This document shows positions 4,388-30,934 of a stretch of 45,404 nucleotides of DNA, one piece after another; within the stretch, counting starts at the first letter, position 1, and each line of letters starts with the position of its first letter. A program made the translations under genes and the position numbers. The stretch lies in contig JAGRGB010000207.1 in NCBI GenBank assembly GCA_020445745.1, positions 1 to 45,404 of the forward strand. Reading direction: 5' to 3'. The notes beneath the pieces were generated by a model, which did no database searches, was not told the origin of the DNA, and worked only from the letters and a program-made list of their open reading frames with translations. The DNA comes from Rhodocyclaceae bacterium. GTDB lineage: Bacteria > Pseudomonadota > Gammaproteobacteria > Burkholderiales > Rhodocyclaceae.

Positions 4388-5056
4388 ATGAACGTCCTCA
4401 ACCTGAATACTGCCCGGTCGCTGCTGTCCGTCGGCATCGCGCTGGCGGTCACGGGTGTGGCCGGCACCGCGCAGGCAGCGGACAAGGAATGGACTTCGGC
4501 GACGATCGCCGAAGCCGTCCAGGCGGCACCGCCGTCGGTCACCGACACCGCCTCGATCTACGGCTGGACGGCGGACGGCGAGCTGGTTCTCGCCCGCTAC
4601 GGCAGCGGATCCTACACCTGCATCGGCAGCGGATCGTTCTCGCTGCGGGTCGGCAAGCCGGCGCTGCCCTATCCGGATCCGATGTGCCTGGATCACAACG
4701 CCTGGGCATTCATCCAGGCGCTGTGGTCCGGCAGCAAGCCGCTGCCGACCGAGCCCGGCCTGATCTGGATGCTGGCCGGCATGAACGTCAGCAAGAGCGC
4801 CGTGGACATCGGCGCGGCGACGGTCGCCGTAGCCAAGGACGACGCCGACGCCGCGAAGGCGGGCATCGTCCAGATGACACCTCATGTGATGGTCCTGCCG
4901 CTGCCGTTCAGCGAGAAGGCGGCGGCGATGGGCACCGCCTATTCGCTGGACGATCCGCTCAACGCCTGGATCATGGCGGCAGGCAAGCCGCACGAACATC
5001 TGATGGTCCATTTCTCGGCAGAAGACGTCGGCGCGATGATGAGCCCCGGCAAGTAG
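4388..5056 (+). CDS. Secreted protein of unknown function
   Basis: The protein has 222 residues with a clear signal peptide (about 1-30, cleavage after AQA). A GGGAGG ribosome site lies 7-13 nt before the ATG. The mature part has the pattern I associate with a widespread uncharacterised family in proteobacteria: an early segment (TASIYGW), a pair of cysteines (SYTCIGSG and PDPMCLDHNAW) that could form a disulfide, a central segment MLAGMNV, PHVMVLPLP, and a C-terminal HEHLMVHF. No catalytic motif is recognisable. It has its own transcription unit downstream of the strong terminator, with no partner gene on the same strand. Periplasmic or extracellular location is inferred from the signal peptide; function is unknown. 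Confidence 0.8.
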   Translation: MNVLNLNTARSLLSVGIALAVTGVAGTAQAADKEWTSATIAEAVQAAPPSVTDTASIYGWTADGELVLARYGSGSYTCIGSGSFSLRVGKPALPYPDPMCLDHNAWAFIQALWSGSKPLPTEPGLIWMLAGMNVSKSAVDIGAATVAVAKDDADAAKAGIVQMTPHVMVLPLPFSEKAAAMGTAYSLDDPLNAWIMAAGKPHEHLMVHFSAEDVGAMMSPGK

Positions 5057-5872: not shown

Positions 5873-7295
<1,423 letters not shown>

Positions 7296-11185: not shown

Positions 11186-11827
11186 TTGGAGTTTAGTCGC
11201 GAATTCATTCGCCTTGCTTGCGACAAAGGTGTCCTTCGCTTCGGTGAGTTCCGCACCAAGGCGGGCCGCCTGTCACCCTATTTTTTCAATGCCGGCCTGT
11301 TCGACGACGGCGACTCCTTCGGCCGCCTTTGCGATTTCTACGCCCGCAGCATCCTTGCCTCGAAGATCGCCTGCGACGTGCTGTTCGGCCCGGCCTACAA
11401 GGGCATTCCGCTGGTCGCCGGCACCGCCCTGAAGCTCGCCGAACGGGGCCGCAACCTGCCGTTCTGCTTCAACCGCAAGGAAGCCAAGGATCATGGCGAA
11501 GGCGGCACCCTGGTCGGTGCCGCGCTGAAGGGCCGGGTACTGGTCCTGGACGACGTCATCTCGGCGGGTACCTCGGTGCGCGAGTCGGTGCAGTTGATCG
11601 CCGCGGCCGGTGCCCGGCTGGCCGGCGTCGTGATCGCCCTCGACCGGATGGAGCGCGGCCAGGGAGACTTGTCGGCCGTGCAGGAGGTGGAACTGGCCTA
11701 CGGGGTGCCGGTGGTCGCGGTCGCCACGCTGGACGATCTGATCGGTCACCTGGCGGATTCGGGCGGCCTGCAGGAACACCTGGACGAGGTACGCCGCTAT
11801 CGGGAGAGCTATGGCATCGCGCGCTAG
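11186..11827 (+). CDS. pyrE: Orotate phosphoribosyltransferase
   Basis: PyrE makes orotidine 5'-phosphate from orotate and PRPP in pyrimidine synthesis. I chose the TTG at 11186 because it yields 213 residues, the length of the E. coli enzyme, and the family start [21 protein letters not shown]-type sequence (given here only in part). An in-frame ATG at 11153 would overlap the divergent xthA start and leave no room for either promoter; it cannot be fully excluded. The core shows [13 protein letters not shown], the [10 protein letters not shown] loop, the flexible loop [13 protein letters not shown] and the PRPP motif [13 protein letters not shown]. The next gene starts inside its last codons (17-nt overlap), so they are translationally coupled. 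Confidence 0.93.
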
Positions 11828-12452
11828 ACCCGATCTCGTCACCGCGCTGCTCGCCGGCGCCGCGATGCTTGCGTCACCGGCGGTCGAGGCCTACGTCTTC
11901 TGCTGCGACGACGACGGTGGCCGCCAGGTCTGCGCCGACGTTCTGCCGGCCCAGTGCTACGGCCGCGCCTACCGGGTGCTCAACTCGCAGGGGCTGGTGA
12001 TCCGCGAGATCGAGGCGCCCCTGACCCGCGATCAGCGCGAGGCGCGCCGGCAGGAGGAGCGCCAGAAGCGGATCGAGCAGGATCGGATCCGGTCGGTTCG
12101 CCTGAAGGAACGTGCCCTGCTCGAGACCTACCGCAGCGTCGAGGACATCGACGCGATCGAGGCGAGGGCGATCGAGGAGATCGACAAGGATCTCACCAAG
12201 GCGACGCGATTCAAGGAGCGCCTGCTCGACGAGCAGAGCCGGCTGCGCCAGGAGCGGGAGTTCTACAAGGAGGGCGACCTGCCGTCCGAACTCGCCAGGG
12301 CGCTGAACGACAATGAACTCGAGATCATTGCCCAGGAGAGCGTCATCGATTCCAAGACGCGGATGAAGGAGGCGATCCGTGAGCGCTACGCGTCCGACCG
12401 CAAGGCCTACCTGGAAATCCTCGACCGGCGCGAGGCGCTGTTCCGGCGCTGA
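11811..12452 (+). CDS. Exported coiled-coil protein of unknown function
   Basis: The protein has 213 residues. A signal peptide (about 1-27, ending VEA) is followed by a small cysteine-rich segment ([14 protein letters not shown] and [13 protein letters not shown]) and then, from about residue 70 to the end, a highly charged Arg/Glu-rich region that should form a long coiled coil. The ATG overlaps pyrE by 17 nt and uses GGGAG inside the pyrE end. I recall similar proteins next to pyrE in related betaproteobacteria, but not a named function. Periplasmic location is inferred. A 7-bp hairpin follows the stop. Confidence 0.82.
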
Positions 12453-12469
12453 GTAAGGCGGAGACGCCG

Positions 12470-12489
12470 CGCTACGGAGCTGCGTAGCG
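12470..12489 (+). terminator. Hairpin after the pyrE operon
   Basis: CGCTACG (12470-12476) pairs with CGTAGCG (12483-12489) around a 6-nt loop, 17 nt after the stop. There is no T run, so termination here is only possible. Confidence 0.4.
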
Positions 12490-16666: not shown

Positions 16667-17110
16667 TCAGGATGCCGCGGCCGGCAGCAGGCGCGGCGGC
16701 CTCGATCGGCGGAATTCGATCAGCCGGTCCCCGACCCGTAGCCGCAGCCGGCCGTCGCCCAGCCGTTCGACCTCCAGCACCCGCAGCGCGGGCCCGATGC
16801 CGTCGAGGCCACGGTCGCCCAGCGGCTCGCGTTCGAGCAGTTCGATGCGGCTGCCGTCGAATGCATAGGTACCGCGCTCGACCACGCCGTCGGCGGCCGG
16901 TGCATGGCAGCGATTGAGGAACAGATAGCGCCGGACGCCGAAATAGATCGCATCCGGACAGCGCGCCTCGCCGACCGCCGTCCAGCGGCTGTGGGCCAGG
17001 GGATTTTCCGCGCCTGTGGCCGGTAGCCACCCGGCGAGGGTGAACACCAGCATCGCCGCGACGCAGCAGCGCCGGCGACCAGGTGCGCGGGGTATCGGAC
17101 GGATCGACAT
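16667..17110 (-). CDS. Small exported protein of unknown function
   Basis: From ATG 17110 the product has 147 residues: a basic n-region (MSIRPIPRAPGRRR), a hydrophobic core (VAAMLVFTLAGWL) and cleavage near TGAE. The mature part has two cysteines (EARCPDAIYFG and LFLNRCHAP) and a strand-rich C-terminus (LRVLEVERLGDGRLRLRVG), suggesting a small beta-barrel such as seen in META/HslJ-like folds, though I cannot confirm a family. The open frame extends to 17236 with an alternative start that would bury the signal peptide. It converges with the SNF2 gene and diverges from the cytochrome gene. Confidence 0.65.
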   Translation of the reverse strand: MSIRPIPRAPGRRRCCVAAMLVFTLAGWLPATGAENPLAHSRWTAVGEARCPDAIYFGVRRYLFLNRCHAPAADGVVERGTYAFDGSRIELLEREPLGDRGLDGIGPALRVLEVERLGDGRLRLRVGDRLIEFRRSRPPRLLPAAAS

Positions 17111-17376
17111 CGGCGGCAGTCCGGGCGGTCGTGGGCCGTCCGCAGGGGTGGCAAGGCTGTCCCGGATGCGGATCGAAAAGCTCACGGTCGGGGCGTCATG
17201 GTGGGCGCTGCGACGGCCGCCGTCAATCCGCGCCACGGGCTACCGGAAGCGCCGGCCGAGGGTGACCCAGGTTACATCCCGCGGCCGGCTCCGGCTGTTA
17301 GCTTGCGGTCGTCGTCCGGGGGGCTCCGCGGCGGCTCGGCAAGACTTCTCAACTTGGACATCGGCAGGAGACCGAA

Positions 17377-19119
17377 ATGATCAGAAAGGGAGCACGTCAT
17401 GCAGCGAGGCTGGTCGGACTCGTCGCGGTCGCCGGATTGGCGGCGTGCGGCGGTGGCAACGGTTCGTCCGACATCATCGAGGCCGAAGTGAGCGCCGCCG
17501 ACGGCGGCAGCTTCACCGACTCGTCCGGCACCGTCACCGTGGTGGTGCCGCAGGGTGCGCTCGCCGCCGACGCGGTGCTGCGGGTCGGAAACGCCATCGT
17601 CGCGACCGGCGCCGACGATCCGGAGTTCGCGAGCGCGGCCTTCGAAGTGTCGTTGAAGCGCGCGAACGGCGACGACGTCGCGCTGGATCGACCGATCAAG
17701 GTGGTGCTGCGGGCAGACCAGACGCCCGAGCATCCGACGCTGGGTGAGCTGTCTCGCTTCGATGCCGGCCAATGGCAGCGCGTCGATGCCAGCTTCTATC
17801 GCGCTTCGAGCCAGAGCGTGGTGGGCCTGAGCCGCCGCAACCGGGCGACCTACCGGGTGACCCTGCGCACCTTGCAGGCCACCCAGGGGGACGCGGTGGC
17901 ACGCGGCCGGACGGTGCTGATGGAAGAGACCTTCGGCAACGAAGCCTTCTTCGGCGACGTCATCGGGCTGCACACGCTGCTCGACAACGTGTCGCCCGCC
18001 GACGCGGTGGCGCTCGGCGTGCAGGTGGACATCAACCGTCTGCCCCAGTCGGTGATCGACCTGATGACCGGCAGCGACCTCGCCGCCAAGGACGCCGCGC
18101 TCGGCGACCCCGCCACCACCCGCGTGCTGCTGCAGAACGACGCGGTGATCGGCGTTCGTGCGCAGTTCGACGGCTTCGGCAACATGGTCGGCGCGGGGCT
18201 GACCTGTGCGCTGTGCCACGTCACGGTCACGCCCACCGAATTTCAGCTGTCCACCGGCGCGACGATGCTGCCGATCGGCGAACCGCGCTTCGACGGCGTG
18301 CCGAACAGCAGCATCGACGCCGGCACGATCCTCTCCCTGACCCCCTTCGTCCAGAACCTGGGCGACGGTGGCGCGACCGCTGCGGTGCTCCAGAGCTGGG
18401 GGCCCGGCAACTTCGACATCCGCGCCCTGCCGGACAACGCGCTCGACGACGGCGTCGTCAATCCGACCAACAATCCGCCGATCTGGAACTTCGTGGACCT
18501 CGCGGAACAGGGCTACCTGTTCGGCTGGGATGGCCTGTTCGAGGACGACGGCTCCAACAACGACGCACTCGCCAGTCAGGCCGAGGCGGTCTACGACCTG
18601 GTGATGCATGGCAACGGCGCGTTCGGCACGGCCGCCGCGACCCTGCCGGCCGAACTGTCGGTGACGCCGCCGCAATCCCTGCTCGACGCGCTCGCCCAGG
18701 CGGAGATCGATCAACCCGGCAACGACATCACTGCCGGCAAGCTGCTCGACCTGCAGGCCTGGATGCGCGCCATCACCAGCCCCGCGCCCGGTCCGTTCGA
18801 CGAGGCGCTGGCCGAGCGGGGATTCGAACTCTTCCACGGCGACGCGGGCTGCGCGGCATGTCATCAGAGCGCGGACCTCACCGGTCCCGGCCTGTTCACC
18901 GCGATCACCGCGCCCCAGGGCGGACTGGCCGGTGGCATCAAGGTGCCCTCGCTGCGCGGCATCTCGCACACCGCACCGTATCTCTCCGACGGCAGCGTGC
19001 CGACCCTGGATGCCGCGGTCGCTGGTGTGCTGACCGTGCTCGAAGGGCTCGATCCGGCGCGGCCGGCGTTCTCGGATGATGATCGGGCCGCTCTGGTCGA
19101 ATACCTCAAGAGTCTTTGA
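17377..19119 (+). CDS. Di-haem c-type cytochrome lipoprotein, cytochrome c peroxidase/MauG-like C-terminus
   Basis: The protein has 580 residues. A lipoprotein signal (lipobox LAAC, C24) predicts membrane anchoring after export. Residues about 35-150 look like a beta-sandwich of the ZU5 kind (TVTVVVPQGAL). Two haem-binding motifs follow, CALCH at 277-281 and CAACH at 492-496. The C-terminal part reads VPSLRGISHTAPYLSDGS, which is characteristic of bacterial cytochrome c peroxidases and MauG relatives. A GGAG ribosome site lies 7-10 nt before the ATG. It is a single gene ending at a GC hairpin. Electron transfer or peroxidase activity at the envelope is inferred; the substrate is unknown. Confidence 0.85.
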   Translation: MIRKGARHAARLVGLVAVAGLAACGGGNGSSDIIEAEVSAADGGSFTDSSGTVTVVVPQGALAADAVLRVGNAIVATGADDPEFASAAFEVSLKRANGDDVALDRPIKVVLRADQTPEHPTLGELSRFDAGQWQRVDASFYRASSQSVVGLSRRNRATYRVTLRTLQATQGDAVARGRTVLMEETFGNEAFFGDVIGLHTLLDNVSPADAVALGVQVDINRLPQSVIDLMTGSDLAAKDAALGDPATTRVLLQNDAVIGVRAQFDGFGNMVGAGLTCALCHVTVTPTEFQLSTGATMLPIGEPRFDGVPNSSIDAGTILSLTPFVQNLGDGGATAAVLQSWGPGNFDIRALPDNALDDGVVNPTNNPPIWNFVDLAEQGYLFGWDGLFEDDGSNNDALASQAEAVYDLVMHGNGAFGTAAATLPAELSVTPPQSLLDALAQAEIDQPGNDITAGKLLDLQAWMRAITSPAPGPFDEALAERGFELFHGDAGCAACHQSADLTGPGLFTAITAPQGGLAGGIKVPSLRGISHTAPYLSDGSVPTLDAAVAGVLTVLEGLDPARPAFSDDDRAALVEYLKSL

Positions 19120-19160
19120 GCGCTCCCGCGGCGACGCGACGGACCCCGGCTCGAACAGCG

Positions 19161-19187
19161 CGCCCGCTCCCGGCCGGGGGGCGGGCG
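19161..19187. terminator. GC-rich hairpin between converging cytochrome and RND genes
   Basis: Bases 19161-19171 pair with 19177-19187 over 11 bp, with one G-U wobble, around a 5-nt loop. It sits between the stop of the cytochrome gene (19119) and the stop of the leftward RND gene (19200). It lacks a T run. Confidence 0.45.
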
Positions 19188-19199
19188 GTGCCATGGCGC

Positions 19200-22100
19200 T
19201 CAGGCGCTGTCGCCGTCGTTCGCGGCAAGCGCGGCGCTGGCGGCGGGCCGCAGCCGGTACATCACCGCGTACAGCGCCGGCACGAATCCGAGCGTCAACA
19301 CGGTGCCGATCGCGAGTCCGAAGGCCATCGCGCAGGCCATCGCGTAGAACAGGGGATCCCGCGATAGGATCAGCGGCAGCAGGCCCAGGATCGTCGTCAG
19401 CGAGGTGATCATGATCGGCCGCAGGCGTGCCAGGCAGGCGTCGACGATGGCGCGATGCGGCGCCTTGCCGGCCGCCTCCTCCTCGCCGATCCGCTCGATC
19501 AGCACGATCCCGTTGTTGATGATGATGCCGGCGAGGCTGAACAGCCCCAGCATCACCATGAAGCCGAACAGCGCCTGCAGCGCCAGCAGCCCGGCCACCG
19601 CGCCGATCAGCACCAGCGGAATCGTCGACAGGATGATCAGCGGGCGACGGAACGAGTTGAACTGCCAGACCAGCAGCACCGCGATCAGCGCGACGCACAT
19701 CGGCAGGGCCGCGAACAGCTTCCGGTTGGCTTCCGCCTGGCTCTCGATTTCGCCGCCGATCTCCAGGCGGTGGCCGTGCGGCAAATCGAGCGTGTCGATC
19801 GCCTGCTGCACCAGCGGCAGCAGCTCCGCCGCGCTCAACGAGACGTGCTTGGCCGCGACCGTCAGGGTGCGCGCCTGGTCGCGGCGCCGGATCCGGGCAT
19901 CCGTCCATTCGCCGCTGATCACCGCCAGCTGCGGCAGCGGAATCCAGCTCCCATGCTCGCGCGAATACACCGACAGCGCCTGCAGATCACTGAGCGCGCC
20001 GCGGGCCTTCTGTTCGCTGCGCATGATCACCGGGATGACGTTCTCGCCCTCCCGATAGTCGGTGACGGTGGCTCCGGACAGGTACATGTTGAGGGCGTTC
20101 GCGATGTCGTGGGAGCTGACGCCGGCCGCCCGCGCGCGGCTCTGGTCCACGTCGACGCGGATCTTCGCGACCCGGTTCTCCCAGTCCTGCGACACGCTGG
20201 TGACGCCGGCGACGCGGCGCAGGGCGGCCAGCAAGGTCTCGGCACGGTCGCGCAGCAGCTCGCCGTCGGGTCCGATCAGGCGCAGTTCCAGCAGCCCCGA
20301 TTCGGCAGCGCCCATCCACATCTTCTTGACGCTGACGCGGGCCTCCGGCAGGCGCTCGAGCACGTAGGCGCGGGTCCTGGCGACCGCGGCATCGACCTGT
20401 TCGGGTGCCTGCGTGTTGACCACCAGGAAGGCCCGGTGGGGGTCGGGATCCATCGCCGCCAGCGACAGGAAGAAGCGGGGGCCGCCGCTGGCCACATAGG
20501 CGACGCTGCCGGCGACCTCGGGATTGGTGTCGCGATCGGCCAGCCAGCCACTCAGGCGTCGCACCACCTCGTCGGTCTTGTGGATCGAGCTGCCGGCCGG
20601 CAGGTCCACGTAGATCAGGTACTGGTTGCGGTCGCCGAGCGGGAAGAATTCCTTACCGACCAGCCCGAACCCGCCGATCGCGATGGCCAGCAGGCCCACC
20701 ATCGCCGCGAGGAACAGCCAGCGCAGGCGCAGGATGCCCTCCAGAATTCGCCGGTAGGCGCGATAGGGGGCCGTCTCGAAGCGCCCGGAGCCCGCCCCGC
20801 TTGCCGCGGCGACCTTCATGAACCACACGCAAAATGCCGGCGTCATGAAAAGCGACAGGAACCACGAGGCCAGCAGCACGATCGTGACGACCTGGGCCAG
20901 CGAGCGGGTGAACTCGCCGGTGCCGCCTTCGGCCAGTGCCATCGGCACGAAGAACAGTACCGTGGTGAGCGAGGAGGTCAGCAATGGAACGGCCAGGCTG
21001 CGGCCCGCTTCGACCGCCGCCGCCAGCCTTTCGGCGCCGCCCTCGAGCCGCACCCGGATGTCTTCGGCGATGACGATGCCGTTGTCGACCAGCATGCCCA
21101 GCGCAATGATCAGCGCGGCGATCGACACGCGCTGCAACTCGACATCGAACGCGCGCATCACGACGATTGCCAGCAGCATCGTCACCGGCACGAAGGCGCC
21201 GACGATCAGGCCGGTGCGGACACCGAGGAACAGCATCACCACGGCGAGCACGATGGCCAGGGTCTGCAGCAGGTTGTTGGTGGCGCCGGCGATCGTCGCC
21301 TCGATCAGCGCCGGCTGGTAGGTCGCGAACTCCAGCACGTAGCCCAGCGGCAGCGCCTGCTGCAGCTCGCCCACGCGCGCGCTGAGCTGTTCGCCGAAGG
21401 CCACCGCATTGGTGCCGTCGAGCGCCGACACGCCCAGCACCAGTGCCGGACGACCGTTGAAATAGACCTTGCTCTGGGGCGGGTCGGCAAAGTCCCGGCG
21501 CAGCGTCATGATGTCGCCGAGACGCAGCACCTGGCCGGCGCCGGGAATTGCCACGAGGGTGTCGCGGATCTGCTCGACGGATTCGAAGTTGCCGCTCGGC
21601 TCCAGCACGAACACCTGTCCCCCGGCATCCACCGAACCGCCGGGCAGGATGATGTTCTGGGCGTTCAGCGTGCTGACCACCGCGTCCGGGTCGATGCCGA
21701 GCTGGGCCAGACGTTCGCGCGAGAATTCCATATACACGCGCTCTTCCTGGACGCCGTAGAGTTCGATCTTCATGACGCCGGGCAGCGCATACAGCGCCTC
21801 GCGAACGTCGCTCGCGCGATCGAACATTTCGGCCATGTCGAAGCCGTCCGCCCACAGCGCGATGGTCGCCACCGCGGTCAGTCCGACCTGGTCATTGACC
21901 ACCGGGCCGATCGTGCCGCCCGGCAGGCTGGCGGCGACGTCGCTCATCTTGTCGCGCAGGTCCTGCCATACCGGAGCGAGTTCGACGACGTCGTCGCGCA
22001 GGGTCACGCTGATCAGCGATGCCCCGGTCTTGGAGTCGGAGACGATGTGCTTGACCTGCGGGATCTCGCGGATCTTCTCTTCGAGCTTGCGGGTGATCAA

Positions 22101-22305: not shown

Positions 22306-23454
22306 TCAGCGCGCCGGTGGTGCCATCAGCCGCACCGCCTGGCCGTCGGAGAGGAAAGCGACGCCGGCGACGATGACCCGCTGGCCGGGTTCGAGGCCGG
22401 TGACGACGGCGTCGTTGTCCCGTGCCGACAGGATCCGTACCGGCGTCACGCGGGCGACACCGGCATCGCTGTCGAACACGAACACGTCGCCCCGCCCGGG
22501 CTCGCTGCCGGGCTTCAACGCGGACACCGGAACGAGAAGGCCTTCACGCTCCGCGTCCGGACCTCCCGCCGCGATGCTGACCTCGGCGGTCATGCCGGCG
22601 CGCAGTTGCGGCGGCGCTTCGATCAGCGCGACCTTGACCGGATAGACGTTGCCGGCGCCCGCCACGCGCCCGATTTCGCGCACCGTGGCGTCGAAACTCG
22701 CATCGGACATCGCCGCGAACACGACCGTCGCCGGCGTGCCGACCGACAGCTGCGCGATCGCGACTTCGGGCACCGAGACTTCCACCTCGAAGCGATCCTC
22801 GCCGAGCAGCGACAGCACCGGCTTGCCGGCGGCGACTTCTTCGTTCGGCTGGACCAGGCGCTCGCCGATGACGCCGGCAAACGGTGCGACGATGCGCGTG
22901 TCCTGCAGCGACAGGGTCGCCCGCGCGAGCCTCGATCTGCGGTAGGCGACGTCGCTCTCGGCGGCGGCGACATCGGCCCGGCTCTGTTCGATACCGGCTT
23001 CGCCGATGAAGCCCTTGGCCAGCAGCTCCTCATTGCGCCGCAGCGTACCGCTGCGCTGCCCGAGCGCCGACTCGGCCTTGCGCAGGTCGGCGCGGGCGCC
23101 CTCGACCTCGAGTTCCAGCGGGCGCGAATCGATGGTCGCGAGCAGTTGTCCGCGGTCGACCGGGTCGCCGGCGTTGACGGCGATCCGCGACACCGTCCCG
23201 CCCACCGGAAAGCTCAGCACCGCCGTCGTGGCGGCTGCCACTCGGCCGGAGAAGCGGCGCACGCGATCGCCGGCGCGAGTCTCGACGATCATCGTCTTGA
23301 CGCTCCTGACCACGGCTTCCGCCGGTGGCGGCGGCTTGCTGCACGCACTCGTCAGGGCCAGGCACGTGACCACCGGGATCACGCGCCGCATCAGGACCGC
23401 GCCGCCGGCAAGCCGACGGCGGCGCTCGATCGGTGCTAGCGGGCGGGGCTGCAT
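22306..23454 (-). CDS. RND efflux pump periplasmic adaptor (membrane fusion lipoprotein)
   Basis: The adaptor joins the RND permease to an outer-membrane channel. From ATG 23454 it has 382 residues, chosen because GGAGGAG lies 7-13 nt upstream. A later ATG at 23391 gives a more conventional signal (MRRVIPVVTCLALTSAC) but has no ribosome site. In either case a lipobox LTSAC predicts lipidation. The order is: barrel-sandwich half (VRRFSGRVAAATTAVLSFPVGG), a coiled-coil hairpin (about 140-200), the second lipoyl half (IVAPFAGVIGERLVQPNEEV), and a beta-barrel ending in VIVAGVAFLSDGQAVRL. The permease gene starts 19 nt downstream. Confidence 0.92.
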   Translation of the reverse strand: MQPRPLAPIERRRRLAGGAVLMRRVIPVVTCLALTSACSKPPPPAEAVVRSVKTMIVETRAGDRVRRFSGRVAAATTAVLSFPVGGTVSRIAVNAGDPVDRGQLLATIDSRPLELEVEGARADLRKAESALGQRSGTLRRNEELLAKGFIGEAGIEQSRADVAAAESDVAYRRSRLARATLSLQDTRIVAPFAGVIGERLVQPNEEVAAGKPVLSLLGEDRFEVEVSVPEVAIAQLSVGTPATVVFAAMSDASFDATVREIGRVAGAGNVYPVKVALIEAPPQLRAGMTAEVSIAAGGPDAEREGLLVPVSALKPGSEPGRGDVFVFDSDAGVARVTPVRILSARDNDAVVTGLEPGQRVIVAGVAFLSDGQAVRLMAPPAR

Positions 23455-23597
23455 GGACCACTCCTCCATCATCGGGCGGTCGCGCCACGGTGTGGCGTGC
23501 CGGCACGGCGGGGCCGGTCCCACGAGCATACTCTTCGCGGCGCCGGTTGGCGTCCGGCAGCGTCGGCCGGACTGTGCGCGTGCCGCCGGCCGCTGCC

Positions 23598-26500
23598 TCA
23601 CGCGACACCGGCGGCGCGATCGCTGGCGTTCGAGTCGGCGTGGAACAGGAAGGCGCGGCCGGACTTCTTGGCGCGGTACATCGCGGCATCGGCATGACGC
23701 ATCAGGCGGCCGGCGTCGCCACCGTCGGCCGGAAACAGCGCGATACCGATGCTCGGCGACACCGAGATGTCGTGCCCTTCGATCTGATAGGGATGCGACA
23801 GCTCCTCGGCGATCTTGGTCGCCACCGCGGTGATCACCGCGCGCGACGCGGGCGCTTCCAGCACTACCGTGAACTCGTCGCCGCCGAGGCGGGCGACATT
23901 GTCGCTGCCGCGCACGCTGTGACCGAGGCGGCCCGCGACCGCCTGCAGCAGCAGGTCGCCGATGTCGTGGCCGAGGTTGTCGTTGACCGCCTTGAAACGG
24001 TTGAGATCGAGAAACATCAATGCAAGCGCACCGTTCGATCGCTGCGCCTGCGCGATCTGCTGTTCCAGTCTTTCCTGGAAATGGCGGCGGTTCGGCAGCC
24101 CGGTAAGGACGTCGCTGTAGGCCAGATTGCGAACATGGTGTTCGGCCCGGCAGGTGTCGATGGTGTGGTGCACGCGCTGCACCACCAGCGCCAGGTGCAG
24201 TGGCGTGGTCAGAAAGTCGGAGGCGCCGGCGGCGAACGCGCTGGCGATCGCGTGGCGGTCGTCGAGGGCGGTCAGCATCAGAACCGGCACGTCCTTGCAG
24301 CCGGCCAGAAGCCGCAGCCGGCGGCAGGTCTCGTAGCCGTCCGGGGCCGGCAAGCCGGCGTCCAGCAGCACCAGTTCCGGCGCCTCGGCCATCGCCTGCG
24401 CCAGCGCGGCCTTGCCCCCGTCGGCCTCGATCACGCGGAAGCCCTCCAGGGCCAACGCCAGACGCAGCGCGGTGCGCGTGCTGCGGTCGTCGTCTACCAC
24501 CAGAATGCGGGCGCCGTCGCCGGCTGGCGCGGGTGGCTGAATGGTCTGGCCGCGCACCAGTCGCGCCAGGGCGCCGGCGACGCGCTCGAACTCCGCAGCG
24601 ACGCTGTCCACCTGGGCAATGCAGTCACCACCGTTGATCGCGCGCTGTTCGAGCTGTTCGGCCGAGCGTGCCAGCAGGTAGGCGCCGAGGGTGCCGGCCG
24701 CACCGCGGATGCGTCGCGCGTTCGATCTGAGACCGTCGGTGTCGTCCTCGACGGCGCCACGCATCAGCGCCTGCAGCAGCTCCGGCATGTCCTCGAGGAA
24801 GGGTTCGATGACCTGTCCCAGGCCGTCACCGAGCACCTCCGACAGACGCTGCAGCGCGATGCCGTCGATGCCCTCGCCGGCCTGCAGCATCACGCCGGTG
24901 CTGTCGGGCGAGATCGCATCCGGCAACGGCACCACGTCGACCCACTGCTGCACGGTATCGGCCAGTGCCTCCATCGTGAATGGCTTCAGGATGCGTCCGT
25001 CCATGCCGGCGCTGCGGCCGCGCTCGATCTCTTCCGGCGCCGCTTCGCTGCCCATGCCGACGATCGGCGTGCGCCCGCCGATGATGGCCTCGCGCTCGCG
25101 GATCGCCCGGCACGCCTCGTAACCGTCCATCGTCGGCATCCGGCAATCCATCAGAATCAGGTCGAAGCGTGTGCCGCCATGGGCGGCAAGCGCTGCGACC
25201 GCGCTGTCGGCCAGCTCGACCCGCGCTCCCAGCAACTCGAGCATGCCGCGCACGATCACCTGATTGGTGCGGTGGTCGTCGACGACCAGAACCCGTGCAT
25301 TGACCCTTGGCATCGGTGGCGGCGCTGCCGGTACCGCGTCGCGGGCCGCCAAATTGCCGAGCTGGCGAAGCAGGTTCTGCAGCCGCGATCGGCGGAACGG
25401 CTTGGCCAGTTCGGCCCACCAGTCGCCGGGATCCGTTTCGCGGCCGCGGTTCAACGGCCGGCTCAGCACCCAGTTGCGCACGTCGGCACCGGCGGCGCGG
25501 CGAAGGCGGGCCAGATCGTCCGGTGCCAGCGCCGCATCCACCAGCGCCAGCGTGAACACGCGGCCCTGCTGGCGGGCCGAAGTGATCGCCTGCAGCGCTT
25601 CCGGCGCGTTCGCGCACAGCGTGGCCGTCGCTTCCTCGGTGGCCAGGTCGGCCTGCAGGTGGGCCCGCCCGACGCGGCTCAGTTCGATCACCAGCACGGC
25701 CATCCCGGGCGCCACGCCCGGGGTCACCAGCTGGGTGGTATCACGGTCCGGTATCAGCGGCAGCAGCAGCCGGAAGACCAGGCCGTCGCCGTCCTCGCGC
25801 TCCAGCCGGCCTTCCATCAGCGCCACCAATTGCTGGCACAGCAGCATGCCGAGCCCCGCGTCGCCACCGTCGTCGGCCTCCCGCTCACCGCTCGCGCGAA
25901 TGTCGATGCGCACCCGCGGTGCGCCGGCGCGCGGCTCGCTGGCGACCGACATCAGCAGCGCGATCTCGCCATGCCGCGTGGCCGCGATCGCCTGTCCGAG
26001 CAACCGCGACAGCAACTGGTGCAGGCGCGGGCCGTCGCCGATCCAGCCGGTGGGGAAGCCCGGCGCGATCAGGTGCCCCAGCTCGAGGCCACGGCCATAG
26101 GCCTGCGGACTGATCTCGTCCACCAGGTCCTCGATCAACTGCCGCAGGTCGAGCGGCTCGGGGTCGAGGGCGACGTGGCCGGTTTCGAGCTGGCAGACGT
26201 CGAGCATGTCGTCGACGCGGGCCAGCAGCGCCTGCGACGAGGCGCGGGCGACCGCCGCAGCAGGACCGGCGGTGCCCGGCAGCTTGACGCGGGCGAGGAC
26301 GTCGAGGCGTTCGATCAACTGGTGCAGGGGCTTGCGCACTTCCTCGCACAGCGTGCCGGACAACTGGTCCTTGAGTCGCGACGCGGCGGCGGCACGCCGG
26401 CGCGAATCGGCGAGTTCGTCCTCGCGGCGATCGAGCCGGGCAGCGAGGCCTTCGACCGCGGCGACGACGGCGTCGTCGCCGTCGGTGGCGGTCGGCGGTG

Positions 26501-27047
26501 GCGGTCGGCTGGCCAGCAGGGCCCGCAGGCGCTGGTCGCCGGCCTCGATCGAGGCCAGTCGCCGCAATGGTCGGCGCAGCACCGCTGCGCTGGCCAGCAT
26601 CACGGCGACCAGCCATGCCAGGGCATAGGCGATCAGCTGGCGTTCGTGCCGGCGGGCGACATGGCTGTCGACGATCAAGCGCAGTCGACGGCCATCCGCC
26701 GTTACCGCGCTGACGTCCCAGTGCGGACCGGGTGCGGCCAGCAACGCGGCGTCGCTGCCGTCGAGCAGCCGTCCGGTCGTGTCGTAAATGCCGGCCGCCA
26801 GCACCTGGGGCTGGGCGAGCGCACGTGCCAGCAAGCTCCGCTGGGCGTCACCGGCGGTCGTCGCAGCCTGCAGGTGGTCGACCAGTTGCCGGGCGCCGGC
26901 CTCGCCGGCGGCGCGCAACTGGAACACCCCCAGGGCGGAGATGCCGACGCCGAGCAAGATGGCGACGACCCCCACCGCCAGCACGATACGGAAACGCAGC
27001 CCGGCCGAATCGTGGGCTGGCGCGGGCGGACGGACGGCGTCGTGCAT
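23598..27047 (-). CDS. Membrane diguanylate cyclase with degenerate hybrid-kinase/HPt scaffold
   Basis: The product has 1149 residues from ATG 27047 (an upstream in-frame GTG at 27110 is less likely). Order: TM1 (about 21-42), periplasmic sensor segment (43-137), TM2 (138-157), a HisKA/HATPase-like region (215-430), a degenerate receiver (about 447-564), a receiver with DD 590-591, D634 and K688, an HPt-like domain (about 730-815), a third receiver with D896 and T926 but Thr948 where Lys is expected, and a GGDEF domain with GGDEF at 1055-1059 and an RxxD inhibitory site at 1046-1049. The kinase H-box reads CEEVRKP (234-240) with Glu235 replacing the phospho-His; the N-box Asn is Gln352; the HPt His is Arg778. 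It should make cyclic-di-GMP but cannot phosphorylate itself. It lies between ggpS and the RND operon on the same strand. Confidence 0.9.
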   Translation of the reverse strand: MHDAVRPPAPAHDSAGLRFRIVLAVGVVAILLGVGISALGVFQLRAAGEAGARQLVDHLQAATTAGDAQRSLLARALAQPQVLAAGIYDTTGRLLDGSDAALLAAPGPHWDVSAVTADGRRLRLIVDSHVARRHERQLIAYALAWLVAVMLASAAVLRRPLRRLASIEAGDQRLRALLASRPPPPTATDGDDAVVAAVEGLAARLDRREDELADSRRRAAAASRLKDQLSGTLCEEVRKPLHQLIERLDVLARVKLPGTAGPAAAVARASSQALLARVDDMLDVCQLETGHVALDPEPLDLRQLIEDLVDEISPQAYGRGLELGHLIAPGFPTGWIGDGPRLHQLLSRLLGQAIAATRHGEIALLMSVASEPRAGAPRVRIDIRASGEREADDGGDAGLGMLLCQQLVALMEGRLEREDGDGLVFRLLLPLIPDRDTTQLVTPGVAPGMAVLVIELSRVGRAHLQADLATEEATATLCANAPEALQAITSARQQGRVFTLALVDAALAPDDLARLRRAAGADVRNWVLSRPLNRGRETDPGDWWAELAKPFRRSRLQNLLRQLGNLAARDAVPAAPPPMPRVNARVLVVDDHRTNQVIVRGMLELLGARVELADSAVAALAAHGGTRFDLILMDCRMPTMDGYEACRAIREREAIIGGRTPIVGMGSEAAPEEIERGRSAGMDGRILKPFTMEALADTVQQWVDVVPLPDAISPDSTGVMLQAGEGIDGIALQRLSEVLGDGLGQVIEPFLEDMPELLQALMRGAVEDDTDGLRSNARRIRGAAGTLGAYLLARSAEQLEQRAINGGDCIAQVDSVAAEFERVAGALARLVRGQTIQPPAPAGDGARILVVDDDRSTRTALRLALALEGFRVIEADGGKAALAQAMAEAPELVLLDAGLPAPDGYETCRRLRLLAGCKDVPVLMLTALDDRHAIASAFAAGASDFLTTPLHLALVVQRVHHTIDTCRAEHHVRNLAYSDVLTGLPNRRHFQERLEQQIAQAQRSNGALALMFLDLNRFKAVNDNLGHDIGDLLLQAVAGRLGHSVRGSDNVARLGGDEFTVVLEAPASRAVITAVATKIAEELSHPYQIEGHDISVSPSIGIALFPADGGDAGRLMRHADAAMYRAKKSGRAFLFHADSNASDRAAGVA

Positions 27048-27134
27048 GAACTGCTGGCCTGATTGCGGCGATGACGCGAGCTTACCGCAAAATCCCGGCT
27101 GGCCAGCCACCCACCGTCGCCGCCGATGTCCCGC

Positions 27135-29426
27135 TCAGTGCTGCAGAGCTCCTTCGACAGCGTGGGCCTCGGCGTCGCGCCCGGCCTGCGCCGCCAGTCT
27201 GGCGCTGGCGACCGCCTCGAGGAAGCCCTCGGCCCAGCTCTGCAGGTCGTTGCTGCAGACGATGTCGAACTGCTCCCGCAGGCGGGCACGGGCTTCCGCG
27301 CGGTGGTGCGTAATGCCGTAGTAGCACTTGTCGCGGAGGTCGGCGGGGTCGTGCGGATTGGTCAGGATCGCGCCGTGCATCTCCGCGGCGACGCCGGTGA
27401 ACTCGGAAAGTACCAGTACCCCGCCGCCGCCGGTCAGTCCCTGGGTGGCGACGTACTCCTTGGCGACCAGATTGAGGCCGTCGCGCAGCGGAGTGATCCA
27501 CATGACATCGGCCATCGCGTAGTAGGCCACCACTTCGTCGAACGGGAAGGCACGGAAGAAGAACTGCACCGGCGTCCAGCCGACCCGCGAGTAGCGGCCG
27601 TTGATGCGGCCGACCGCCTGCTCGATCTGGGTCTGCAGGCTGCGGTAGATCGTCATCTCGCGGGCGGCCGGCACGCATACGGTGATCAATGTGACCCGGC
27701 CCTGCAGCTCCGGGTACTCGTCCAGCAGTTTCTCGAAGGCCATCAGTTTTTCGAGGGTGCCCTTGGTGTAGTCGAGGCGCTCGACCGACAGGATCACGCG
27801 GATGCCCTTCAACTGATCGCGCAACTGCTCCATCCGGCGGCCTGCTTCGGGCTGGGCGAGCACATCCCGAACCCGGCCGACATCGAGACCGACCGGATGG
27901 GCGCCGAGTCCGATGCGGCGCCCATGTACCTCGATGGCAGTGGTGTACTCCTCGAGCCCGACGGCGCAGCCGTAGGTGCGGAAGGTCGGCGCGCAGTTGG
28001 TCACCTCGACGCGCTTGATCGGCGCGACGCCGCGGGCGACGTCGACGAAGTTCTCGGCCTGGCGGGGGATGTGGAATCCGACATAGTCGCACTGCAGCAG
28101 GCTGCCGACGATCTCGCGACGCCAGGGCAACACGTTGAATACGTCGGCCGACGGAAAGTAGGTGTGATGGAAGAAGCTGATCACCAGATCCGGGCGGAAT
28201 TCGCGCAGGAAGGCCGGCACCATCCACAGGTTGTAGTCGTGGATCCACACCGTGGCACCCTCCGCCGCCTCGGCGGCGGTGCGCTCGGCGAACAGGCGAT
28301 TGACCTTCAGGAAGACGTCCCAGTCCTCCTCGCGGAACACCGCCCGCTCCCAGAAGGTGTGCAGCGTCGGCCAGAACGCCTCCTTCGAGAACCGCTTGTA
28401 GAAGATGTCCACGTCCTCCTTCGACAGGGCCACCCGCGAACAAACCAGATTGGGGAAGCTGCGCGGATCGACGCGGGTGTGGGTCTCGAAGGTCTGCTGG
28501 CGGGACGGATCGTGAATCGACCAGGCCACCCAGGCGCCTTTGCGCCCGCCCTTGAAGAACGACAGCAGGGTCGGCAGGATGCCGTTCGGCGAGCTGTGGC
28601 GGCGCCGCACCAGCTGGCCGTTCTCCCACGATTCCTCGTAGGGCAGACGGTGGTAGACCATCACCAGTTCGGATCGCCCGGCCTCAGATACCGGGCGGGT
28701 GGCCGCTTCGACCCCGCCGGGGCCGAGGAAATCGAAATGGACGATCGCATCGAGGATGCCACCGCAGCCGGTGCGCCGGGCGTGGTGGATGCGGGCGCGG
28801 TCCCGCGTGGCCTGGAGCAGGCCGGCTTCGGATTCGCCGACGCACACGCCCTTGAAGCCGGCTTCGAGCATGTCCAGGTCGTTGAGGGTGTCGCCGGCCA
28901 CCAGCACCTGGCCGCCATCGATCTCGAGCCGCTCCACCAGCCGCGCCAGGGTCGTGCCCTTGTTGACGCCCGGCGGCAGGATGTCGAGATAGCGGTCTTG
29001 GGAGTACAGCACGTCGCAGCCCAGCCGGCCTGCCACCGCCTCGACCTCGGCGGGAACGTCCTGCGGGGCACACAGGTAGGAGCAGCGACGCTGCTGCGGA
29101 ACTTCCTGGCGTTCGAGCTGCGGAAAGATCGACATCGCCTCGGCGACCTTGCTCTCGCCGGGCCACAGCACGTCGATTTCCGACTGGATCGGCTGCACCG
29201 GGGTCAGCGAGGCGCCTTCGACGACGGTCGCGCCGACGTCGCAGATCAGATAGTCGGGTGTCGGTATCGTCGGGTCGGCGAGCAGCGGCATGACCACTTC
29301 CAGGCCGCGCCCGGTGACGAACACCAGCTTGATTTCGGGATGATCGGCGATCAGCTGGTAGAGGCGATTGCGTTCCTCAGGATCGCCGGCGAGGAATGTT
29401 CCGTCGAGGTCTGTCGCTAGCAGCAT
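27135..29426 (-). CDS. ggpS: Glucosylglycerol-phosphate phosphatase-synthase fusion
   Basis: The enzyme makes the osmolyte glucosylglycerol from ADP-glucose and glycerol 3-phosphate and removes the phosphate. From ATG 29426 it has 763 residues. Residues 1-240 are a HAD-IIB phosphatase (DLDGT at 6-10, Lys156, GDTLND 178-183). The GT20 synthase starts near 255. Its sequence follows glucosylglycerol-phosphate synthase rather than trehalose OtsA: MVYHRLPYEE, SSPNGILPTLLSFF, KEAFWPTLHTF, VNRLFAE, WIHDYNLW, FNVLPWRREIV and ITPLRDGLNLVAKEYV. Fused GgpPS enzymes are known in some gammaproteobacteria. Automated annotation may label it trehalose-6-phosphate synthase. A GGAG site lies about 10 nt before the ATG. 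It is followed on the same strand by the diguanylate cyclase. Confidence 0.88.
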   Translation of the reverse strand: MLLATDLDGTFLAGDPEERNRLYQLIADHPEIKLVFVTGRGLEVVMPLLADPTIPTPDYLICDVGATVVEGASLTPVQPIQSEIDVLWPGESKVAEAMSIFPQLERQEVPQQRRCSYLCAPQDVPAEVEAVAGRLGCDVLYSQDRYLDILPPGVNKGTTLARLVERLEIDGGQVLVAGDTLNDLDMLEAGFKGVCVGESEAGLLQATRDRARIHHARRTGCGGILDAIVHFDFLGPGGVEAATRPVSEAGRSELVMVYHRLPYEESWENGQLVRRRHSSPNGILPTLLSFFKGGRKGAWVAWSIHDPSRQQTFETHTRVDPRSFPNLVCSRVALSKEDVDIFYKRFSKEAFWPTLHTFWERAVFREEDWDVFLKVNRLFAERTAAEAAEGATVWIHDYNLWMVPAFLREFRPDLVISFFHHTYFPSADVFNVLPWRREIVGSLLQCDYVGFHIPRQAENFVDVARGVAPIKRVEVTNCAPTFRTYGCAVGLEEYTTAIEVHGRRIGLGAHPVGLDVGRVRDVLAQPEAGRRMEQLRDQLKGIRVILSVERLDYTKGTLEKLMAFEKLLDEYPELQGRVTLITVCVPAAREMTIYRSLQTQIEQAVGRINGRYSRVGWTPVQFFFRAFPFDEVVAYYAMADVMWITPLRDGLNLVAKEYVATQGLTGGGGVLVLSEFTGVAAEMHGAILTNPHDPADLRDKCYYGITHHRAEARARLREQFDIVCSNDLQSWAEGFLEAVASARLAAQAGRDAEAHAVEGALQH

Positions 29427-29479
29427 GGCATTAGCTCCGTAGTTCCGATTCAGTGCCACGCGCCGCCAGCGGCGCGTGC

Positions 29480-30934
29480 TCATTCGTTCCGTCGTGACGG
29501 CCCAGCCGTCGGATTGCCGCCGTCGGCCTGCCCTGCGGCGGGCGCCTCGCCGACGCAATCGGTCGCCGCTGGGGTGCCGTCGTCCGGGCCGTCGCTCGGT
29601 GGTGGAGCGGGCCGCGTATCGACGAGCACCGGCATCGCGCTTGCCTGCCCTTCGGCGGCAAGCTCGTTGGCGCCTTCTGCGGAGGCGGCTTCGCCGGCGT
29701 GCGACGGTGGCGGAAAATCATCCGGTGTCGGCATGATCTCGAGGACCGTCGGCGTGGTTCGCACCATCGGCACGAAATGGGCCGGCTCGCTGATCTGCTC
29801 CGCGCCGCGGCGCGTCGCCAGCCATGCGATGGTCGCAAGCAACACCTGCGCCACGGCGAAATGGACTGCCAGTGCCTTGGCACCGAGCAAGGCCATCAGG
29901 CCGCCGGCCAGCATCGGCCCGATTGCCGCCCCGATGCCGTGCACCAGCAGCAGCACGCTCGAGCCGCCGACGATGTCTTCGGCCCTCAGGTGATCCACCA
30001 GGTGGGCCACCGACATCGGGTAGATCGCGAAGGCCAGGCCGCCATAAAGAGCGATCGCCGCTACCGACCATCGACCGAGCGATTCCCCGGCGACCAGCGG
30101 CAGCGCCGCCAGTGCGGCGGCGAAAGCGGTGATCGCCAGCGCGCTGCGGCGGTCGCGGCTGTCGGAGAAGGCGCCCAGTGGCCACTGCAGCAGTGCGCCG
30201 CCGACGATGCAGGCACTCATGAACAGGGCGACGCCGTCACCGGGGAGTCCGATCCGTGCGGCATAGACCGGGCCCATGGTCCAGAACGCGCCCATCGTCA
30301 ATCCGGACAACAGGCCGCCGCTGGCGGCGACCGGCGCCTCACGCCACAGCTTCTTCGGCGAGAAGCGGCCCGGCTCGGTGGTCGCGGGCTGTGCCAGGCG
30401 GGTCGCGGCGACCGGCATCGTGGCGAGACAGATGAACAGCGCGGCGACCGCGAACAAGGTGAAATCGGCCGGCGAATCGAGGCGCAGCAGCTGCTGGGCG
30501 ATGGCCAGCGCTCCCAGGTTGACGACCATGTACAGCGCGAAGACCCTGCCGCGCTGTTCCCGCCCGGCCTGACTGTTGAGCCAGCTCTCGATGATCATGT
30601 AGAGCGAAACCAGCGAGGTGCCCCCCAGCACCCGCAGCGCGACCCACGCCACCGGCGACACCAGCAGGCCGTGAAGCAGGGCGGTGGCCGCGGTGGCAGC
30701 AGCGAAGAAAGCGAACGCACGGATGTGGCCGATGCGCCGGATCAGCGGCGGCGCCAGCGCGGTCCCCACCAGAAAGCCCGCGAAATAGCCGGAGCCCATC
30801 AAACCGAGCACCGGAGCGCTGTAGCCTTCGATGCCGCCCCGCACGGCCAGCAGCGTACCGAGCAGGCCATTGCCGAGCAGCAGCAGGGCGACGCCCGCCA
30901 GCAATGCGGAAATGGGAACGATGTGACTAATCAT
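29480..30934 (-). CDS. MFS transporter with long Pro/Ala-rich cytoplasmic tail
   Basis: The protein has 484 residues and twelve predicted membrane segments up to about residue 385, with the inter-domain loop near 185-200 (TTEPGRFSPKK). The layout (MISHIVPISALLAGVALLLLGNG start, ESWLNSQ in TM4-5, PVYAARIGL) resembles the YcaD-like group of the major facilitator family. The last 95 or so residues (from VPMVRTTPT) are rich in Pro, Ala, Glu and Asp and look disordered. Its stop is 53 bp upstream of the ggpS start on the same strand, so they may share a transcript. A promoter with an overlapping inverted repeat is seen at 31032-31075. The substrate is unknown. Confidence 0.9.
   Translation of the reverse strand: MISHIVPISALLAGVALLLLGNGLLGTLLAVRGGIEGYSAPVLGLMGSGYFAGFLVGTALAPPLIRRIGHIRAFAFFAAATAATALLHGLLVSPVAWVALRVLGGTSLVSLYMIIESWLNSQAGREQRGRVFALYMVVNLGALAIAQQLLRLDSPADFTLFAVAALFICLATMPVAATRLAQPATTEPGRFSPKKLWREAPVAASGGLLSGLTMGAFWTMGPVYAARIGLPGDGVALFMSACIVGGALLQWPLGAFSDSRDRRSALAITAFAAALAALPLVAGESLGRWSVAAIALYGGLAFAIYPMSVAHLVDHLRAEDIVGGSSVLLLVHGIGAAIGPMLAGGLMALLGAKALAVHFAVAQVLLATIAWLATRRGAEQISEPAHFVPMVRTTPTVLEIMPTPDDFPPPSHAGEAASAEGANELAAEGQASAMPVLVDTRPAPPPSDGPDDGTPAATDCVGEAPAAGQADGGNPTAGPSRRNE

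Follow-up and report, generated by a model that had tools for sequence, protein, structure and literature searches.

Pseudo-kinases are known among two-component proteins, and as of 2014 few studies had dealt with them (PMC5361649). In Caulobacter, DivL keeps the kinase fold with its phospho-accepting histidine replaced; it is reported to bind phosphorylated DivK and has been proposed to relay its signal (PMC5361649). The Pseudomonas hybrid kinase RetS is described as having a degenerate ATPase domain without G-boxes and as keeping the acceptor of REC2; its three phosphorylation sites are retained, its phosphatase activity depends on T428, and its target is GacS (PMC5992135). CCNA_03265, a Caulobacter hybrid kinase, lacks the histidine and has the receiver aspartate, and the accessible part of that account mentions no diguanylate cyclase domain (PMC11481889). 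In PleD the switch is phosphorylation of the receiver, and the switching of pseudo-receivers has been termed a mystery (PMC12632262). Here we describe a gene at 23598..27047 on the minus strand of a 45,404-nucleotide stretch of DNA from a Rhodocyclaceae bacterium (contig JAGRGB010000207.1 of assembly GCA_020445745.1; the whole stretch is referred to as the window), which is predicted to encode a membrane-anchored pseudo-hybrid-kinase/diguanylate cyclase of 1149 amino acids plus stop. Substitutions appear at nearly every step of its phosphorelay and are common to all three near orthologs, with the cyclase motif intact. No description of a diguanylate cyclase whose relay has neither histidine was recognised in the accessible parts of the open-access literature, which is weak evidence of absence.

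Relay residues in the window protein and its relatives

Residues were compared in an alignment with 45 homologs, in which the trio formed by the window copy and its two nearest orthologs stands against 43 other rows. Left out were the query itself (L001), partial matches within its own genome (L002–L008, covering GGDEF, or receiver and GGDEF in L005), L009 and L010, which come from the same genomes as L019 and L018, and L021–L028, which did not reach E 1e-30; a Nocardioides match without GGDEF (L020) is included among the 43. The nearest orthologs, 79% (G001; L010, the same match as L018) and 78% (G005; L009, the same match as L019) identical to the window protein, are from Rhodocyclaceae metagenome-assembled genomes. 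Two further orthologs of the same genus, in G004 and G002, are 50–52% identical and have an intact relay, and G003 gave no match at E <= 1e-60 in the search of six genus genomes.

The reading frame runs from an ATG at 27047 to a stop at 23598–23600; this start is backed by the three orthologs, in which M1, D3 and A4 are invariant, and the program-made list of open reading frames has the frame beginning at GTG 27110. The hybrid-kinase domain order with a C-terminal GGDEF, as given in a preliminary description made from the sequence alone, is borne out by the Pfam series: HisKA (PF00512; 15.9 bits, under the cut-off of 26.9), HATPase_c (PF02518; 25.5 bits, marginally under 26.4), two receivers (PF00072), Hpt and a full GGDEF domain. 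Hpt scores 37.5 bits, over its cut-off of 24.6, so that the fold is recognised though the phospho-histidine is gone, and GGDEF (PF00990) scores 166.8 bits over residues 976–1131, covering profile positions 1–159 of 161. No HAMP domain was found by Pfam in the window protein. By hydropathy, the N-terminal segment (residues 1–214; 26406..27047, minus strand, as are all segments of the gene) has hydrophobic stretches at ~13–47 and 137–158 flanking a shortened Cache-like segment.

The losses follow one another along the polypeptide. In the dead HisKA, or dimerization and histidine phosphotransfer (DHp), domain (residues 215–292; 26172..26405), E235 (26343–26345) occupies the H-box site, which reads E/D/E in the trio and H in all 39 other rows that cover it, the H-box being uncovered in 4 of the 43; the Thr four residues on (H+4) is Lys in all three copies (K239 here). 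In the dead catalytic and ATP-binding (CA) domain (residues 293–440; 25728..26171), the N-box Asn is replaced by Q352 (25992–25994; Q/H/H in the trio, N in 42 of 42 other rows) and the G1 Asp by A385 (A/A/A against D in 42 of 42), and ~19 residues of the G1/ATP lid after position 387 are gone in all three orthologs. A receiver-like pseudo-domain (residues 446–575; 25323..25712) lies between the CA domain and receiver 1, and is divergent even in intact relatives, with one column conserved at 90%. Receiver 1 (residues 583–705; 24933..25301) has lost the Thr/Ser at 666 (G/G/D; T or S in 43 of 43), the dead histidine phosphotransfer (HPt) domain (residues 735–832; 24552..24845) has R778 (24714–24716) for its phospho-histidine (R/Q/Q; H in 43 of 43), and in receiver 2 (residues 846–966; 24150..24512) K948 has become Thr (T/T/T; 41 of 42 other rows have K and one has R). 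Retained in all three copies are D590, D591, D634 and K688 of receiver 1, D852, D853, D896 and T926 of receiver 2, and, in the GGDEF domain (residues 967–1137; 23637..24149), the inhibitory site RxxD at 1046–1049 (R1046, D1049) and the GGDEF motif at 1055–1059. Both receivers thus keep their acidic pockets, each without one key residue.

Every residue that the preliminary description had named from the letters is present in this alignment: Glu235, Gln352, Arg778, Thr948, D634, D896, and the intact GGDEF and RxxD motifs. Its claim that the G-box pattern was lost is right for the G1 DxGxG and the ATP lid and wrong for G2, where GLG is retained; and its statement that only isolated receiver aspartates survive was too strong, since D634 and D896 are present with the further receiver residues listed above. 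It had missed the loss of the receiver 1 Thr (G666), the extra receiver-like domain and the missing HAMP and EAL domains. Glu and Arg are not strictly conserved in the orthologs: the HisKA site is always acidic, and the HPt site varies between Arg and Gln.

Several trivial explanations were rejected. A single mutated or mis-assembled copy is ruled out, as the two nearest orthologs, 21–22% different in protein, carry every loss and neither keeps either histidine. A displaced phospho-histidine is ruled out by the lack of any His invariant across the trio in HisKA or HPt, and an intact paralog by the finding that none of the six genus genomes gave more than one match at E <= 1e-60. The genome as a whole (G000) is rich in signalling genes, with 152 places resembling the kinase, receiver or GGDEF domains of the query (E <= 0.001). 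Homologs were sought in overlapping genome sets, the larger groups being sampled: 61 genomes of relatives (matches at E <= 1e-120 in 10, among them the query's own), 395 of the family (31 at 1e-115), 369 of the class (12 at 1e-115), 399 of the order (7 at 1e-110), 6 of the genus (5 at 1e-60) and, in one scan, named genome contigs (11 loci). Four additional homologs from the order-level search (L085–L088) retain both histidines and the EAL motif by a motif check. Given that only the trio lacks the residues and the other homologs keep the histidines where covered, the relay loss is seen on one branch within one genus; observed in three species only, it is lineage-specific and not a property of the architecture.

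The GGDEF domain retains 53 of its 55 family-conserved columns, HisKA 15 of 28 and CA 18 of 31. By its sequence, the window protein lacks what marks a HisKA-type histidine kinase, that is, the His as well as the N-box Asn and G1 DxGxG, and it has the GG(D/E)EF signature in a full domain, from which catalysis is predicted. In a published survey, as far as its accessible part goes, the phospho-histidine is missing in 0.9% of HisKA domains (722/76,471) and 0.9% of Hpt domains (90/10,312) (PMC12632262). Both of these rare losses are common to three diverged orthologs.

An AlphaFold2 model built from 11 sequences (mean pLDDT 70.6, pTM 0.34) predicts domain-like secondary structure throughout, with long DHp helices at 191–253 and 260–288 and alternating strands and helices in the pseudo-receiver; given these scores, relative domain placement and dimer geometry are unreliable. 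In Foldseek searches against the PDB, GGDEF structures matched with TM scores by target of up to 0.96 and RetS/GacS kinase chains with 0.72–0.85, and PleD and ShkA were matched over multi-domain stretches with poor superposition.

Selection on the dead domains and timing of their change

Ratios of nonsynonymous to synonymous divergence (dN/dS) were computed pairwise among the three dead copies by the NG86 method with 1000 codon bootstraps. In HisKA they are 0.089, 0.074 and 0.098 (upper 95% limits 0.20, 0.17 and 0.19), and they range from 0.07–0.09 in receiver 1, 0.10–0.15 in HPt, 0.10–0.16 in GGDEF and 0.13–0.19 in receiver 2 to 0.20–0.23 in CA and 0.36–0.56 in the sensor region. The dead HisKA is 91% identical to both orthologs and the GGDEF domain 88%. 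Since the proportion of synonymous differences in HisKA (pS 0.40–0.50) is ordinary, the constraint acts at the protein level, and an overlapping gene or RNA as its source is ruled out. The intact pair G004/G002 has values of 0.024 for HisKA, 0.25 for CA, 0.15 for HPt, 0.048 for receiver 1, 0.058 for GGDEF, 0.35 for residues 1–140 and 0.14 for residues 141–214. CA and HPt are therefore as constrained in the dead copies as in the intact pair, and clear relaxation is found only at 141–214 (0.37–0.51 against 0.14), where relatives have HAMP. Judged by these ratios, the dead domains appear mildly relaxed (HisKA, receiver 1 and GGDEF) and not decaying.

Branch lengths were estimated on a fixed topology, in which the trio stem has a support of 100. 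The stem and crown lengths are 1.86 and 0.18 in HisKA, 0.52 and 0.26 in GGDEF, 1.06 and 0.60 in CA, and 0.90 and 0.29 in receiver 2, and the HisKA stem of the sister pair is 0.008. A simple count of alignment columns gives 29 stem-fixed positions among the 78 of HisKA, with 13 varying inside the trio, against 22 and 33 among the 171 of GGDEF (Fisher P = 0.007 for the contrast); the 29 include H+4, H+8, H+11 and H+12. A burst of change followed by constraint in HisKA is the pattern expected from re-use of a dead DHp, as these counts suggest.

Proposed mechanism and alternatives

We give roughly even odds (about 0.5) to the reading that the protein is a dedicated diguanylate cyclase that retains its pseudo-kinase as a scaffold for dimerization and docking, and whose output would be set by a partner or by conformation and not by phosphoryl flow. 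Catalytic activity, the dimer platform, partner binding and the order of events are what we infer. The ancestor would have been a GGDEF-EAL enzyme under phosphorelay control. Along the branch that leads to the three species, all of one Rhodocyclaceae genus, its gene would have parted from TonB-receptor and binding-protein neighbours, and the HAMP and EAL domains would have disappeared. It is also on this branch that the DHp His, conserved residues of the ATP site, the receiver 1 Thr, the HPt His and the receiver 2 Lys were lost. The dead DHp, heavily remodelled and afterwards fairly constant, may now serve as a dimer that is already formed and as a platform for docking. A bound partner protein (the DHp of another kinase, or a response regulator) or a change of conformation could then set the geometry of receiver 2 and GGDEF, which would control cyclic-di-GMP synthesis, with feedback through RxxD. 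Of what a function like that of DivL would call for, the fold and the selection are supported, and the binding is putative. More tentatively, it is possible that the dead DHp is itself a receptor: docking of a response regulator or a foreign kinase on its remodelled helices would switch the synthesis of cyclic-di-GMP by that same chain, no phosphate being transferred. If true, two-component signal flow would be reversed in the manner of DivL and act in cis on a second-messenger enzyme, and the intact same-genus orthologs would represent its "before" state. The preliminary description had likewise proposed a scaffold that has given up phosphotransfer and signals by conformation; the relay losses shared by orthologs agree with the former, and conformational signalling, as a possibility, is favoured by the selection data.

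A number of observations weigh against the scaffold reading. The dead HisKA, receiver 1 and GGDEF are less constrained than in the intact pair, so some relaxation exists, and the N-terminal 140 residues are barely more relaxed (0.34–0.59) than those of that pair (0.35). The HisKA stem of 1.86 was computed from 78 sites, long stems are also found in CA (1.06) and receiver 2 (0.90), and the P value of 0.007 is one of six comparisons, becoming ~0.04 when corrected. CA and the pseudo-receiver lean the opposite way (P 0.04 and 0.03, uncorrected), which limits the burst and freeze to HisKA and does not extend it to the whole dead relay. Moreover, the genomes are many-contig drafts, and the L018 and L019 records are metagenome-assembled.

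The main alternative, which we consider doubtful, casts the protein as a phosphate sink or slave: D634 would be phosphorylated in trans by a different hybrid kinase, as RetS REC2 is by GacS, and phospho-receiver 1 would drive GGDEF via receiver 2. Receiver 1 does retain D590, D591, D634 and K688 and is among the most conserved parts of the protein (dN/dS 0.07–0.09), and the genome holds other matches spanning kinase and receiver (e.g. C88:12938-14908). The absence from all three copies of a Thr/Ser that every one of the 43 relatives has, and of the Lys from receiver 2, speaks against it; phosphorylation of D634 by another kinase, also raised in the preliminary description, is possible with that Asp retained and is weakened because the receiver 1 Thr is lost as well. 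We regard it as unlikely that the relay is a passive relic, a mere linker to a GGDEF domain that is constitutive or set by expression, perhaps together with the synthase gene upstream. The cyclase gene does start 87 bp past the stop of that gene with no terminator-like site found between them, segment 141–214 is relaxed where relatives have HAMP, and HisKA is mildly relaxed against the intact pair. A mere linker, however, would be expected to drift at a dS of ~0.65–0.76, whereas the dead HisKA has a dN/dS of 0.07–0.10 and an identity that exceeds that of GGDEF.

Loss of EAL and the RxxD site intact in all three copies would suit a protein that binds cyclic-di-GMP at this site and signals outward via the DHp, as a receptor and not an enzyme. 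Such a role seems improbable: degenerate GGDEF receptors normally lack the motif, which is retained here with nearly all family-conserved GGDEF columns. That the protein is still a kinase using another residue, H242 or E235 as acceptor, strikes us as very far-fetched, for H242, present in two of the three copies, is Gln in L018, and no copy of the trio retains the N-box Asn, the G1 Asp or the ATP lid. A transmitter phosphatase like that of RetS was also considered and is unlikely, because the H+4 Thr, which we take to be the transmitter phosphatase residue, is replaced by Lys in all three copies.

The locus and its comparison with known systems

HAMP and EAL are present by Pfam in the relatives L011 and L029, whose sCache_4 matches fall under that family's cut-off, and L019 has neither domain. 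An EAL motif 3' of GGDEF was found by pattern in 41 of the 43 non-trio rows, being missed in L063 and L020 only, and in none of the trio; the window frame, without a C-terminal EAL, is not that of a bifunctional GGDEF-EAL protein. No EAL remnant was detected in the window, L018 or L019 with the EAL domains of two relatives as queries (14 chance-level matches, E 1.2–9.6), a search blind downstream in L018, where the contig ends 42 bp past the match. Measured from stop to stop, the frames of distant homologs are mostly 1338–1863 residues long against 1175–1254 in the trio.

In the trio, the cyclase gene stands behind genes for an MFS protein and a glucosylglycerol-phosphate synthase. The window synthase (27135..29558, minus strand) has a HAD phosphatase domain (TIGR02398, 730.6 bits against a cut-off of 569; PF00982/PF05116), and its stop lies 87 bp from the cyclase ATG on the same strand. 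The synthase occurs in all six genus genomes, and the MFS and synthase genes adjoin without a kinase gene in the G003, G002 and G004 stretches. In L018, at ~6803–6809 (G001:C70 ~4669–4675), the synthase gene is split over two frames, by an assembly error or a real break. A scan of 26900–27300 for promoters and terminators found nothing. Just upstream of the cyclase gene, the three orthologs share the element TTGCGGTAAGCT (window 27063-27090, minus strand; L019 7958-7985; L018 7957-7984), followed by CCGCAA in the window and L019 or CCGCAG in L018; it is an inverted repeat and may be a promoter or operator.

Downstream in the window, a gene for an HlyD-type adaptor (22306..23601, minus strand) adjoins an RND pump gene. 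A convergent RNA methyltransferase gene (PRK14464/RlmN-like, 71% identity) lies at the 3' end in L019, L064 and L065, and because this same gene is found there, the dead and intact genes occupy the same locus. In L019 it spans 11406-12470, between the cyclase and the RND adaptor, and it is absent from that place in the window (23598-23601). Adjoining the RND genes of G005, L019 also carries a HAMP-HisKA-HATPase-REC-HPt hybrid kinase (16938-19262, minus strand), 35–38% identical to intact relatives over part of its length and a conceivable partner kinase; the corresponding place in the window holds a gene with two CxxCH motifs (17377-19119) and not a hybrid kinase.

The intact gene has a TonB-dependent receptor and a binding protein encoded 5' of it, in the same order in G004, G002 and G088. 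The full run upstream of the intact HK-REC-HPt-REC-GGDEF-EAL gene comprises an unknown protein of 266–378 amino acids, the TonB receptor and an ABC_sub_bind-like protein (L064 1-4364; L065 14776-18915; L066 11661-15653), and no description of it was recognised in the literature search. The binding protein is ABC_sub_bind by Pfam in L066, and its 54%-identical homolog in L064 escapes recognition. Its gene was sought at 54 loci (L018, L019, the six longer copies L064–L069 of loci already included, and 46 distinct others) and adjoins the kinase gene in 22 of the 46; the other 24 showed none, and many stretches among them end before the kinase gene starts. Of the six genus genomes, whose completeness is 80–100%, two have the binding protein at E <= 1e-10 and two the TonB receptor at E <= 1e-60, in both cases exactly those with the intact kinase. 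We infer that a rearrangement probably separated the cyclase gene from its presumed input partners.

The closest known relatives are the hybrid HK-REC-HPt-REC-GGDEF-EAL proteins of the family and class (G004/L011, G088/L029), which share the domain order from the Cache-like segment to GGDEF at 31–52% identity and, in the same genus, the locus. They differ in keeping the phospho-histidines where covered, in having HAMP and EAL (L011, L029) and in the binding-protein gene beside nearly half of the loci. A natural before/after pair thus exists within one genus, with intact relay, receptor and binding-protein genes and EAL on one side and all of these gone on the other, and the dead modules of the "after" copy are still held by selection. 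The locus allows a direct test of the idea that the scaffold of a phosphorelay can find a second use in gating cyclic-di-GMP synthesis, with no phosphate involved.

Neither the PleD equivalog (248.7 against a cut-off of 474) nor the BarA equivalog (NF008318; 196.1 bits against 890) describes the protein. For the C-terminal part, PleD, with its receiver adjoining GGDEF, is the closest match by sequence in NCBIfam and the PDB, but both receivers of the window protein lack a key residue. The predicted model matches RetS chains; T428 of RetS is presumably the H+4 position, which is Lys in the window protein, and both histidines are missing there. With DivL the protein would have in common a dead kinase with a proposed docking or sensing role, whereas DivL acts on CckA in trans, and the dead kinase of the window is fused to its own cyclase and accompanied by changes to the ATP site, HPt and receivers. 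A pseudo-kinase joined to a diguanylate cyclase is therefore of a known kind, and the interest of this one comes from its intact same-genus orthologs and its conserved dead domain.

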